Origin: Flavobacterium sp. 1355
GTDB lineage: Bacteria > Bacteroidota > Bacteroidia > Flavobacteriales > Flavobacteriaceae
Direction of reading: 5' to 3'
Assembly: GCF_017833415.1 (NCBI RefSeq)
Contig: NZ_JAFICC010000007.1
Span: forward strand, 62,001 to 126,000
Length of the DNA: 64,000 bases
How positions within the stretch are numbered: position 1 is the stretch's first letter; every line of letters starts with the position of its first letter. Under the pieces are notes generated by a model. That model did no database searches, was not told where the DNA came from, and saw only the letters and a list, made by a program, of their open reading frames with translations. Both the position numbers and the translations under genes were made by a program. Below are positions 52,525 to 56,649 of this stretch, piece by piece.

Positions 52525-52938
52525 ATGTTATCACATAAAGCAAAATACGCCCTTAAGGCCTTACTTTATTTAGCTGAACAAGACGAAAATCACATTTCTA
52601 AAACTATAGAAATTGCTGATGGTGCCAATATACCTAAAAAGTTTCTAGAGCAAATTTTATTGGATCTAAAACGTGGCCGTTTTGTGAGCAGTAAGCAGGG
52701 GAAATTTGGTGGATACTATCTGATAAAATCTAAAAATGACATTACTTTGGCCGAAATTCATCGTTTATTTGACGGTGCAATTGCGCTTTTACCTTGTGCT
52801 TCGTTAAACTTTTACGAGCCATGTTCTGATTGCAAAACCGAGTCTGAATGCAGTCTGCGACACGGTTTGATGTTAATCAGAGACAAAACTTTGAATGCCA
52901 TGGAAGGCATTACTATTGCTTCACTGGTAAACAAATAA
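52525..52938 (+). CDS. Rrf2-family transcriptional regulator
   Basis: A 137-residue Rrf2 regulator. The winged helix-turn-helix lies at 1-75 (MLSHKAKYALKALLYLAEQD, IPKKFLEQILLDLKRGRFVS, SKQGKFGGYYL), and the C-terminal region has a Cys-rich loop LPCASLNFYEPCSDCKTESEC. Such a loop binds an iron-sulfur cluster in IscR-type members, while CymR-type members sense cysteine metabolism with a partner. A short inverted element and a Cys-rich leader ORF lie just downstream. In related genomes such regulators often sit with sulfur assimilation genes (from memory). Confidence 0.9.
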   Translation: MLSHKAKYALKALLYLAEQDENHISKTIEIADGANIPKKFLEQILLDLKRGRFVSSKQGKFGGYYLIKSKNDITLAEIHRLFDGAIALLPCASLNFYEPCSDCKTESECSLRHGLMLIRDKTLNAMEGITIASLVNK

Positions 52939-52954
52939 AAAAATATTTTCTTAA

Positions 52955-52975
52955 TCCCTAGTAAATCGATAGAAT
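52955..52975 (+). promoter_or_regulatory. Possible Rrf2 operator
   Basis: CCCTA-GTAAATCGA-TAGAA: an imperfect inverted element (CTA/TAG) immediately upstream of the TATGTTTG -7 box, covering the place where the -33 element should be. Resembles Rrf2-type sites in general spacing only. Confidence 0.35.
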
Positions 52976-52980
52976 TTGTG

Positions 52981-52988
52981 TATGTTTG
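52981..52988 (+). promoter_or_regulatory. -7 promoter element for the leader ORF and TonB receptor
   Basis: TATGTTTG matches TAnnTTTG exactly, 38 bases before the leader ATG at 53027. No clear TTG at -33, which is typical of activator-dependent promoters. Confidence 0.5.
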
Positions 52989-53026
52989 CAAAAAATAATT
53001 AACAAACCATTACAAATTTTTAATCC

Positions 53027-53143
53027 ATGAAAGTACATTTTAATCCATCAGGTGTATTAGAAAATTTTTTGCAAAGAAATCAAAATAGCGGTTTAAAAAC
53101 TGCAAACCATTTTTCATTTATAATGTGTAGCATGTGTAGGTAA
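53027..53143 (+). CDS. Small leader ORF ending in a Cys-x-x-Cys motif
   Basis: A 38-codon frame with ATG at 53027 and TAA at 53141. It begins MKVHFNPSGVLENF and ends NHFSFIMCSMCR, with two TGT codons three positions apart at the very end. It sits between the promoter at 52981 and the TonB receptor at 53192, after the Rrf2 gene. A 38-residue product with its only Cys codons at the C-terminus fits a leader peptide that senses cysteinyl-tRNA or cysteine level. No intrinsic terminator hairpin follows, so the mechanism would differ from the ilvA attenuator. A small functional protein cannot be excluded. Confidence 0.55.
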   Translation: MKVHFNPSGVLENFLQRNQNSGLKTANHFSFIMCSMCR

Positions 53144-53191
53144 AAAAATTTTTAATTTAAATTCTACTAATCACATATACTTAATATAAAA

Positions 53192-55738
53192 ATGAAAACA
53201 TCTATAAAAAATATATTAACAATACTATTCTTTTTAACCTTCTCAATCTCATTTGCACAAAACATAGAAGGTGTAGTTACAACAAATGAAAATACACCTT
53301 TGATAGCAGCAAATGTTGTAATAAAAGGTACTACTTACAGTACAATTACTGACGAAAACGGAAAATTTAGCATTGATACCCAAGGAAGACTTCCTCTGAC
53401 ACTATTAGTGCAATATGTTGGTTATACAACATCAGAATATAACGTGAATGTTTTACCAGCAACTCCATTACAGGTTGTCCTTAATGAAGAAAACAGACTT
53501 GTAGAAGTTGTTGTTTCTTCAAGACGCCGTATCGAAAAAGTGCAGGATGTGCCGATCGCTGTTTCTGTTATTACAGGAAAGCAGGCAGAACAAACGGGAG
53601 CTTTTAATGTGAACCGCATCAAAGAACTTGTTCCGTCTGTACAGCTTTATTCTTCAAATCCAAGAAATACCGGAATCAACATAAGAAGTTTGGGTTCTCC
53701 TTTTGGTCTTACTAACGATGGTATTGATCCTGGTGTTGGTTTTTATGTAGACGGTGTATATTATGCACGTCCGGCTGCAACAACGCTTGATTTTATCGAT
53801 GTAGAGCAAATAGAAGTTTTGCGTGGGCCTCAGGGATCGTTGTTTGGTAAAAACACGACTTCGGGAGCTTTTAATATTACAACACGTAAACCAAGTTTTA
53901 CTTCTGGTGCAGACTTCGAAGTGAGTTACGGAAATTATTCTTTTTTACAGGCTAAAGCATCTGTAACAGGGGCTTTGAGTAAAAAAATTGCGGGTCGTCT
54001 TTCTTTTTCAGGAACTTCTCGTGATGGTTTGATTGACAATGTTGCTACAGGAAGAGCTACAAATACATTAAACAATCAGGGTATTAGAGGTCAATTGCTT
54101 TATACTCCATCTGAAAATACAAATATCATCTTAGCTGCAGATATTACGACACAGCGTCCGGACGGATATGCACAGGTTGTTGCCGGTGTTGCTCCAACGC
54201 AAAGAGCGGCTTACCGTCAGTTTAATGCTATTATAGCCGATTTAAACTATCAGTTGCCAAGTCAAAATGCGTTTGATCGTAAAATTGATCAGGATACTCC
54301 ATGGCGTTCTAATCAGGATATGGGAGGTGTTTCTTTAAATATTGATACTAAAATCGGCAGCGGAACATTAACTTCTACAACAGCATGGCGTTTTTGGAAC
54401 TGGGATCCGTCAAATGACAGGGATTTTACAGGATTACAGGTTCTTGCAAAATCACAAAACCCTACAAGACAAACTCAGATCACACAAGAAGTACGTTATG
54501 CAGGTCAGCTAACTTCAAAAATAAGTGGCGTTGCAGGTGTATTTTTTATCGATCAGACATCTCAAACAGATGGCACAGAAGAATCTGGAAATGCGCAATG
54601 GCGATTTGCTCAAAGTTCGACAAGTGCGTTATGGAAGACCCCGGGGCTTTTTGAAGGATACGGGATTAAAACCGATGCAAGAATCAGAGCATCCAGTGCG
54701 GCAGTATTTGGACAGTTAGACTGGGCTATTACAGATCGCCTTCACGTTTTACCAGGTGTACGCTATAATTTTGATAAAAAAGATGCAAGTTATTCCCGTA
54801 CTACTTATGGCGGATTACAAACTACAGATCCTGCATTGCTTGCCTTAAAAAAACAAGTTTACTCTGATCAGGCATTTGATTCAAGTACTGATAATACAGA
54901 CTTTTCAGGAAATATAACAGTTTCTTTTAAGGCTTCAGATAAAATTAATGCGTATGCTACTTATGCAAAAAGTTATAAGCCAGTGGGTGTGAATGTGGCC
55001 GGATTACCAACAGATTCAAAAGGGTTGCCTTTACTAGACCTTGCTGTAATTAAACCGGAAAAAGTAAATCATTATGAAGTTGGGGTAAAAACTTCACCAT
55101 TTAAAAATTCAATTTTCAATTTAACATTCTTTCAAACAGAAATTAAAGATTTTCAAACCAATGTTCAGGCAGCTGAATTAGGTGTGAATCGTGGTTATCT
55201 TGCTAATGCAGACAAAGTTGAAGTTAAAGGGGTCGAATTAGATGCCAGTTTTGTTGTGAGTCAGCATTTGACTATAAACGGTGCTGCAACGTATACCGAT
55301 GGTAAGTACGTTAAGTTTACAAATGCCCCGCTTCCGTTAGAAGAAACAGGAGCTCCGGTTTCGTTTAAAGATGTATCCGGATCTGCTTTGCCGGGCGCTT
55401 CAAAATGGGCAGGATCTTTGGGTGGAGAACTTTCTGATCAGGCAAGATTCTTTGGGAATGCAGGTAAAGTTTTCCTTGCAATTGATTCTTATGCTCGTTC
55501 TGAATTCTCATCAAGTCCTTCTGCTTCAAAATATTTAGTGGTACAAGGGTATGCAATTTTTAATGCTCGTGTTGGTTTCCGTGCCACACAAGGTTTATCT
55601 GTTCAATTTTGGGGAAGAAACCTTTTGAACAAAGATTACTATGAGCAATTATTGCCTGCCGGAGGAAATACAGGTCAATACGCTGGTGTATTAGGTGATC
55701 AGAGAACGTACGGTGTCACTTTAAAATATTCGCTATAA
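53192..55738 (+). CDS. TonB-dependent outer-membrane receptor
   Basis: An 848-residue receptor: signal peptide 1-22, carboxypeptidase regulatory-like domain about 23-110 (IEGVVTTNENTPLIAANVVI), plug about 118-235 (VPIAVSVITGKQAEQTGAFN and VLRGPQGSLFGKNTTSGAFN) and a 22-stranded barrel to the end. The plug is of the FecA/siderophore type rather than SusC-type. The substrate is not known; the sulfur-type regulation suggested upstream would favour a sulfur compound or metal complex, which is inference. A terminator-like hairpin follows. Confidence 0.92.
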   Translation: MKTSIKNILTILFFLTFSISFAQNIEGVVTTNENTPLIAANVVIKGTTYSTITDENGKFSIDTQGRLPLTLLVQYVGYTTSEYNVNVLPATPLQVVLNEENRLVEVVVSSRRRIEKVQDVPIAVSVITGKQAEQTGAFNVNRIKELVPSVQLYSSNPRNTGINIRSLGSPFGLTNDGIDPGVGFYVDGVYYARPAATTLDFIDVEQIEVLRGPQGSLFGKNTTSGAFNITTRKPSFTSGADFEVSYGNYSFLQAKASVTGALSKKIAGRLSFSGTSRDGLIDNVATGRATNTLNNQGIRGQLLYTPSENTNIILAADITTQRPDGYAQVVAGVAPTQRAAYRQFNAIIADLNYQLPSQNAFDRKIDQDTPWRSNQDMGGVSLNIDTKIGSGTLTSTTAWRFWNWDPSNDRDFTGLQVLAKSQNPTRQTQITQEVRYAGQLTSKISGVAGVFFIDQTSQTDGTEESGNAQWRFAQSSTSALWKTPGLFEGYGIKTDARIRASSAAVFGQLDWAITDRLHVLPGVRYNFDKKDASYSRTTYGGLQTTDPALLALKKQVYSDQAFDSSTDNTDFSGNITVSFKASDKINAYATYAKSYKPVGVNVAGLPTDSKGLPLLDLAVIKPEKVNHYEVGVKTSPFKNSIFNLTFFQTEIKDFQTNVQAAELGVNRGYLANADKVEVKGVELDASFVVSQHLTINGAATYTDGKYVKFTNAPLPLEETGAPVSFKDVSGSALPGASKWAGSLGGELSDQARFFGNAGKVFLAIDSYARSEFSSSPSASKYLVVQGYAIFNARVGFRATQGLSVQFWGRNLLNKDYYEQLLPAGGNTGQYAGVLGDQRTYGVTLKYSL

Positions 55739-55914: not shown

Positions 55915-56649
55915 ATGAAATTCTTCAAATTAGTACTCTTTTTAGTCTTTACAAGTCCATTTTTGTTGGCGCAGACAAAAACAGATCAACAAACACTAAC
56001 CTGGATACGGTATTATAATATTTTTCCTCTTACCCAAAAATGGGCATTGCATTCTGAGTTTGACAACAGGAGCTTTGTTAATCCTCTTCATGAAAATCTT
56101 TTTGTAATAAGGCTTCAAGGGCGTTACAGGGCAAATAAAATTATAGATTTGGGAGGCGGATTTGCTTATTTTAATGTGAATACGCAGGATCCTCATGCTG
56201 ATCCGGATTTCTCTGTACCTGAATACCGATCACAACAGGATATCACTTTTATTAATGATATTGCCAAAATTACTTTTCATAACCGGTTTCAGTTAGAAGA
56301 ACGTTTTATTCAAAAATCCAATAAAACCGAATTGCTGAATGATTTTTCCTTTTCTTTTCGATTCAGATACAGATTGCAATCGACATTCGACCTTTGGAAA
56401 AAAGAAAAAAAGAGCCTGAAAGGAACAATTTCTGATGAAATTATGTTTAACCATGGAAAAGATAACCGAAAAAACACTTTTGACCAGAATCGCTTCTACG
56501 CTGCCTTGCGTTATCATTTTAATCCTAATCTTGGTTTAGAATTAGGATATTTAAAAAGTTACCAGAGACGCTCGAGCGGGATTGATTTTTACGATCGTGA
56601 CATAATCCGTTTTACAGTTTATCATAGAATCGATCGGCTTAAAAATTAA
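55915..56649 (+). CDS. DUF2490 outer-membrane-type protein
   Basis: A 244-residue exported protein (FLVFTSPFLLAQ cleavage region) built of alternating aromatic strands (TLTWIRYYNIFPLTQKWALH, FVIRLQGRYRANKIIDLGGG, HFNPNLGLELGYLKSYQRRS), fitting the DUF2490 beta-barrel family. Function unknown; membership in the outer membrane is likely. It comes 176 bases after the TonB receptor and after that gene's hairpin, so it may have a separate promoter. Confidence 0.82.
   Translation: MKFFKLVLFLVFTSPFLLAQTKTDQQTLTWIRYYNIFPLTQKWALHSEFDNRSFVNPLHENLFVIRLQGRYRANKIIDLGGGFAYFNVNTQDPHADPDFSVPEYRSQQDITFINDIAKITFHNRFQLEERFIQKSNKTELLNDFSFSFRFRYRLQSTFDLWKKEKKSLKGTISDEIMFNHGKDNRKNTFDQNRFYAALRYHFNPNLGLELGYLKSYQRRSSGIDFYDRDIIRFTVYHRIDRLKN

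Follow-up and report, generated by a model that had tools for sequence, protein, structure and literature searches.

A candidate cysteine-codon leader peptide ahead of a TonB-dependent receptor gene in Flavobacterium

Why should a short open reading frame (ORF) that keeps its only cysteine codons for its very end lie between the gene of an Rrf2-family regulator and that of a TonB-dependent receptor? The question is raised by a stretch of 64,000 nucleotides (nt) from Flavobacterium sp. 1355 (contig NZ_JAFICC010000007.1, positions 62,001 to 126,000), here called the window, in which the ORF occupies positions 53027-53143 of the forward strand and has 38 codons and a stop, ending MCSMCR (MKVHFNPSGVLENFLQRNQNSGLKTANHFSFIMCSMCR). 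Its Cys codons are only codons 34 (53126-53128) and 37 (53135-53137), and its stop lies 48 nt upstream of the receptor ATG at 53192. A promoter -7 box, TATGTTTG (52981-52988, forward strand), which we take to be of the Bacteroidota type and for which an alignment of 39 distinct loci gives the consensus TATaTTTGC, lies 38 nt before the ATG of the ORF, and an operator-like palindrome, CTAGTAAATCGATAG, is found at 52958-52972 on the same strand. This is the layout described in the original prediction, made from the sequence alone, which held that the receptor is regulated by sulfur or cysteine status at two levels, DNA binding and leader translation. Judged on sequence, the ORF probably encodes a leader peptide whose cysteine codons serve to control receptor translation, as part of a regulon for sulfur acquisition; it is very likely to be a Cys-sensing regulatory leader, whilst the case for one particular hairpin mechanism, translational attenuation, is finely balanced. 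The basis of this reading is the conserved ORF, its Cys-rich end, the palindrome, an element complementary to the leader and the sulfur loci that carry like signals.

The leader was found wherever a receptor adjoins the regulator. In a sample chosen independently of the leader, by protein search with the Rrf2 regulator against 111 genomes of the genus (ortholog cut-off E 1e-45), 43 genomes have an Rrf2 ortholog and a receptor homolog is the next gene at 37 of the 43 loci (blastp E 7e-155 or better). At all 37 there is a leader ORF of 30-54 codons with terminal Cys codons, its stop 45-58 nt upstream of the receptor ATG in every case (the 54-codon leader, at L158, being counted from the upstream ATG), so that the ORF and its Cys codons, on whose loss among close relatives the original prediction would have foundered, are kept. 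The remaining six loci have another next gene (L242, L244, L249 and L250), none that was found (L251) or one that was not resolved (L252), and none of the six showed a canonical leader. An ORF ending SCFMCPRA at L242 may be a relic leader. The usual end is MCMCW or MCMC, of which the MCSMCR of the window is a variant, the closest variant to it being the MCCMC of Flavobacterium sp. HTF (L344). Distant members have N-terminal parts that bear no relation to the rest, and their ends are MCMC, MCMYMC, MCMCMC, MCLC, MMRMCQ, MMRMCCY or MCMS.

How far the leader extends was followed with the peptide itself. It aligned with ORFs of 35-38 codons in the same position at 22 of 30 fetched loci, its own included, and the pattern ATGTGYATGTGYTGNTRR, for ends of the MCMC[CW] type, gave 39 matches in 34 of 219 genomes of the genus against none for the reversed control, the window's own variant being unmatched. 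Named loci that carry this intergenic motif number 73 and come from Flavobacterium, apart from two assigned to 'Flavobacteriaceae bacterium' and one to [Flexibacter]. A leader sequence search of 349 family genomes gave matches at E<=0.1 in 32 genomes, of which just three, all from the window's genus and one of them its own genome, were convincing. Across 395 genomes of the phylum the pattern MCMCx-stop occurs at 50 places in 44 genomes, with about half as many in the control; 30 places were viewed, 13 of which are leaders, in Flavobacterium or a second genus, which we presume to be Chryseobacterium-like, and the other 17 have no receptor or sulfur leader context, four of these (L135-L138) lying on close checking inside or antisense to genes. 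A match within the window's genus, L132, is likewise antisense within a gene. Spread through the phylum as a whole is thus not demonstrated. Some counts below use a wider set of 96 distinct leaders, made up of the Rrf2-based sample and of loci fetched by matches to the leader or its pattern or by the intergenic motif, the conservation of which is therefore partly selected.

Is the ORF translated, and is it the end that matters? When the nucleotides of 26 loci from the Rrf2-based sample were aligned without constraint, the length of a gap run was divisible by three in 289 of 330 cases within the ORF (in 41 it was not) and in 72 of 1121 outside it. The ratio of nonsynonymous to synonymous variation (pN/pS) in 74 alignable leaders is 0.23 for the last eight codons and 0.83 for the preceding part. 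Cysteine fills 79 of 222 positions in the final six codons of the 37 leaders and 4 of 1109 elsewhere, at least two Cys being present in this segment at 35 of the 37 loci and at least one at all of them; the corresponding counts in the partly selected set are 201 of 576 and 5 of 2857, with at least one terminal Cys in 96 of 96. Frame preservation and constraint at the Cys-rich end point to a leader peptide whose end is important and not to a small working protein, which lends support to the proposed level of leader translation. No family in Pfam or NCBIfam matches the ORF. Position -3 is A before the receptor ATG in 89 of 96 loci and C before that of the leader in 64 of 96; by PMC6847099, A at -3 is favourable and C unfavourable in F. 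johnsoniae, initiation is tuned by structure of the start region, and ribosome profiling is described for that species.

The second proposed level is that of DNA. The palindrome pattern CTA-N8-[AG]TAG is upstream of the leader at 35 of the 37 loci and in 92 of the 96 distinct leaders, and it is also kept at three Rrf2 orthologs without an adjacent receptor (L242, L244 and L249). By a matrix for which no locus but the Rrf2-TonB one of relatives was used, the site of the window scores 19.3, the best position in the 64 kb, and the own-genome sites of the pattern that are named next score 12.0 to 21.2. Such sites stand right after the -7 box of the genome's own TauE-cysH-cysD-cysN unit (CTACTAAGCCGATAG) and of both its SusC loci, one with sulfatases, and near its gdhA and a cysteine-desulfurase-like gene; at gdhA an operator-like site precedes the Cys-rich leader (L371, G000:C5:242971 region, 1501-1860). 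Together with the 35 of 37 these sites lend support to regulation by sulfur status at the DNA level. The loose operator pattern CTANTANNNNNATAG has 55 matches in the own genome, 14 of which were fetched for their likeness, in addition to the sites of the window and of C15; sulfur genes or Cys leaders accompany four of the 14, which are promoter-side (L139, L140, L141 and L143), one (L151) is intergenic without a sulfur link and nine are inside genes. In 61 genomes it occurs at 71 places against 56 in the control. From these, 27 were fetched for their recurring motif (at least five more carry it), four being without a gene in that orientation; a Cys-ended short ORF, with ATG, TTG or GTG starts allowed, is present at 24 of the 25 gene-bearing places (L092 and L143 added), L232 having none.

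The regulator itself (52525-52938, forward strand; Pfam Rrf2, E 1.7e-32) has the Cys-rich loop that had been described, with four Cys in PCASLNFYEPCSDCKTESEC. It passes the NCBIfam model rrf2_super, whilst IscR, CymR and other equivalogs fall far under cut-off, the CymR equivalog NF047409 scoring 51 bits where 195 are needed; it is like CymR, a regulator of cysteine metabolism, in its Rrf2 domain and its presumed sulfur targets but differs in lying far below that cut-off. Among 249 genomes of the family, other genera have 16 Rrf2 loci, with a PAPS-reductase-domain protein (CysH) as next gene in 10, and the best matrix site behind Rrf2 exceeds all 100 shuffles at 11 of the 16 and at 9 of the 10 with CysH, CTACTAATCCGATAG being present in three of these loci. 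That the Rrf2 of the window is the ortholog of these cys-operon regulators was considered and rejected, as they stand at 60-70% to a second own Rrf2 (L140:5192-5602, beside TauE and the cysH-cysD-cysN operon) and at 46-56% to the window's, which would thus seem to be paralogous to the sulfur regulator. The second Rrf2, to go by sequence, may bind the same operator. At L372 (G046:C116) an operator-like site, a Cys leader (..SDCMMCMCLAK) and a TonB receptor occur with the Rrf2 ortholog on a different contig (C148), so that unit and regulator need not lie together.

Whilst the leader of the window is the one under study, it is not the only Cys-ended leader of its kind. Ahead of SusC, SusD, three sulfatases and a rhodanese/thioredoxin protein, the own genome has a leader with a TTG start, MKTTERNTSYILFKNYTYSTSCYMCMCC. 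A third SusC has the leader MKRRMCM or MKKRMCCR. At L099 (6090-11122) a leader ending YMCMCC heads cysE, cysK and the genes of a type 2A (SrpI-like) encapsulin and of the cysteine desulfurase that is its cargo, an arrangement linking the encapsulin to the sulfur loci, and at L217, L219 and L239 leaders ending MCFCC lie upstream of cysE-like genes. The order at gdhA is a leader, MKNYSQNIVPFMCSFAMCCMISNGMKWP, then an intrinsic terminator of 11 bp with a T-run and then a second Cys-rich ORF; both ORFs occur at all five gdhA loci inspected, the first being divergent at L366 and the second read from a TTG start at L349. These sister leaders at separate sulfur loci are unrelated in sequence and have only the terminal Cys codons in common. 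Operator-like sites adjoin the leaders of the SusC/SusD/sulfatase, the cysE-cysK-encapsulin-cysteine desulfurase and the gdhA loci. In the SusC/sulfatase locus L092 (5260-5420) a second short ORF, MKKMHSCCCR, was seen directly before a strong hairpin, GCCATTTCTG-CGGCAA-CAGAAATGGC, which is without a U-run and complementary to part of the Cys codons.

In the second genus, which belongs to the same order, MCMCC ends are found in 23 of 78 genomes and none in the control. Here a leader of 27 codons ending RMCMCC is followed by a TonB receptor, and preceded by the same ORF end, at 20 of 21 newly fetched loci (L253-L273). At L093 (7780-11042) the ORF ahead of the leader encodes a sulfite reductase (NIR_SIR, E 1.7e-42), with CysN-like, PALP, tetrapyrrole methylase and flavodoxin-reductase ORFs upstream and a siroheme-synthase/TauE protein after the receptor. 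With the leader lying between sulfite reductase and receptor, the receptor is probably a transporter of a sulfur compound.

How might such a leader act on the gene behind it? The gap between leader and receptor holds a conserved element, CTACTAATCACATATAC (53164-53180, forward strand), 11 nt upstream of the receptor ATG; in the form CTACTAAT[CT]A[CT]ATAT it is present in 34 of the 37 loci at a near-constant distance from the ATG, and its sequence complements the terminal codons of the leader, which in many species read GUGUAUGUGUUGGUA. It may be envisaged that when sulfur or cysteine is low the Rrf2-type repressor leaves its CTA-TAG operator and the promoter fires. With ample Cys-tRNA the ribosome would complete the leader and the last codons would be free to pair with the CUACUAAUCACAUAUAC element, CACAUAUAC pairing with the Cys-codon arm, and the paired element would hinder initiation at the receptor, as a start in Flavobacterium would need its start region to be open but no Shine-Dalgarno pairing. 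With scarce Cys-tRNA the ribosome would halt on the UGU codons, the presumed stall sites being Cys34 to Cys37 (53126-53137, forward strand), which are also part of the 5' arm, so that this arm is covered, the receptor is translated and a sulfur-bearing compound may be imported. In the erm and cat translational attenuators a halted leader ribosome likewise frees the next start from a hairpin; their signal is an antibiotic, whereas here it would be Cys-tRNA, there is no Shine-Dalgarno sequence to hide and the hairpin is a presumed one. The complementarity of leader and element is nevertheless strong at the level of sequence: over the 37 loci the arms bind with a mean of -12.7 kcal/mol, compared with -7.1 after the arms are shuffled and -3.1 when a segment upstream in the leader is taken, 95.4% of cells are paired in register against at most 58% when the arms are slid, and eight folds give z from -1.2 to -4.8.

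Several results weigh against this reading and need to be set beside it. The z value is below -2 in only 20 of the 37 loci, and the fold of the window is itself weak (z -1.37), because its extra Ser codon shortens the stem. Covariation was sought in the hairpin and not found, own arms scoring -13.54 and swapped arms -13.37 with 58 of 96 better, and there is only one compensatory cell (L015), pair shuffles doing equally well in 87 to 131 of 500. The RNAalifold energy is only -2.6, and the arms pair poorly in the distant loci L179, L181 and L246. Nor is there enrichment of the loose operator pattern, the own genome having 55 matches where its control has 99 and the 61 genomes 71 where theirs has 56, and the element before the receptor resembles the operator, being the top, though weak, non-operator position in 79 of 91 loci. 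Attenuation of translation, by ribosomes starved of cysteine, is the simplest reading, with strong pairing that lacks support from covariation.

Its main rival keeps the same Cys-codon leader but moves the action to transcription, with a stalled ribosome that, as has been proposed for mycobacterial cys leaders, keeps Rho off the transcript or allows RNA polymerase to proceed, the element being a site for Rho or for a protein. The locus has no intrinsic terminator, in which it is like the mycobacterial cys leaders (passages of PMC1262725), and a terminator-bearing leader does precede gdhA in the same genome; yet the near-constant distance from element to ATG and the complementarity to the codons fit translation better, and the 48-nt gap is AT-rich without a C-rich stretch, so that we regard this rival as possible but doubtful. 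It is unlikely that the element is instead a second operator, with RNA complementarity as a by-product. The resemblance, CTACTAAT-N3-ATA having most of the operator, speaks for this, but the mean matrix score is 3.4 against 18.2 for the operators, T replaces the operator's final G, and the sole variation, in 93 of 96 loci (many of them fetched by this motif), is C to T at two positions, by which G-U pairing is kept.

Alternating Met and Cys resembles the ligands of Cu(I), and the MCMC nascent chain might accordingly sense copper or another thiophilic metal. There is a precedent in CruR, a Cys-motif upstream ORF (uORF) before a copper TonB transporter operon in Bordetella (PMC9426467 and PMC12914433, in part). 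CruR, however, is by the accessible passages of PMC9426467 a DUF2946 protein with CXXC, a RAPP arrest motif and Rho termination, whereas the leader here is linked to sulfur genes; DUF2946 is absent from it, as from its Pfam results any family is, and RAPP is absent from the window ORF and from the tallied endings of the 96 leaders. Since Met varies in sister leaders (MCFCC, MCSCC, CCCK, MKKRMCCR), some leaders have a single terminal Cys (MMRMCQ, MCMS) and the linked genes are sulfatases, cysE, cysK and sulfite reductase with none for copper, a metal sensor is very improbable. That the Rrf2 operator regulates alone, the ORF being translated incidentally or giving a small working protein, is scarcely credible even with the palindrome kept at receptor-less Rrf2 orthologs, as constraint sits in the last codons of an ORF whose N-terminal part has diverged past alignment and unrelated leaders at other sulfur loci share nothing but terminal Cys codons.

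Translational attenuation as preferred here can be compared with several known systems. Like trp- and his-type attenuators the locus has a short ORF with codons of the presumed regulating amino acid near the stop and a kept frame, but those alternate terminator and antiterminator, and no terminator-like site was found in 52900-53300; as had been supposed, this is not classical attenuation, although the own gdhA leader does carry a terminator. No match reached the Rfam gathering score in the window or six loci. Leader-peptide attenuation of amino-acid biosynthesis operons is reported from the same genus, in 5' untranslated regions of Flavobacterium psychrophilum, and the available passages of that report (PMC9723704) name no TonB receptor, sulfatase or cysteine leader. 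The nearest likeness is to the Cys-codon leaders without terminators predicted in Actinobacteria (PMC1262725, in excerpt) and studied in mycobacteria by Canestrari 2020 (as cited in passages of PMC9094748), which also are short ORFs with Cys codons beside the stop. Those precede sulfur genes and have a run of Cys, whereas here the link to sulfur rests on sister loci, the target is an outer-membrane receptor, Cys alternates with Met, and the sequence is unrelated, from another phylum and with a shared upstream palindrome; the mycobacterial ORFs are moreover leaderless, by the title cited in PMC9094748, where here 38 nt separate -7 box and ATG. No report of Cys leaders in Bacteroidota was found in a search of the open-licence literature, Cys-leader control being known from Actinobacteria.

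The genes downstream complete the picture, the order being Rrf2 regulator, leader, TonB receptor and DUF2490 protein. The presumed target (53192-55738, forward strand) is a TonB-dependent receptor of 848 amino acids with a CarboxypepD-like N-terminal domain by Pfam, for which no cut-off was reached in the NCBIfam scan. The DUF2490 gene (55915-56649, forward strand; Pfam E 5e-37) is probably the next of the unit, and by likeness such an ORF is directly after the receptor in L094 and L133 and further downstream in L098.

It is an even question whether the locus is part of a wider network, in which flavobacteria, and probably other Bacteroidota, would read their cysteine supply through unrelated Cys-ended short ORFs, at about four loci in the own genome, each beside one sulfur operator and each with its own mode of action, from a hidden start without Shine-Dalgarno sequence at the TonB receptor to a terminator at gdhA. 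If the proposed reading is true, the sulfur regulon of Bacteroidota would be two-layered, and a start codon could be hidden without there being a Shine-Dalgarno sequence to mask. It would also suggest a role in sulfur scavenging for several TonB/SusC receptors, with the Cys-ended leader and palindrome together serving as a marker by which more such loci may be found.

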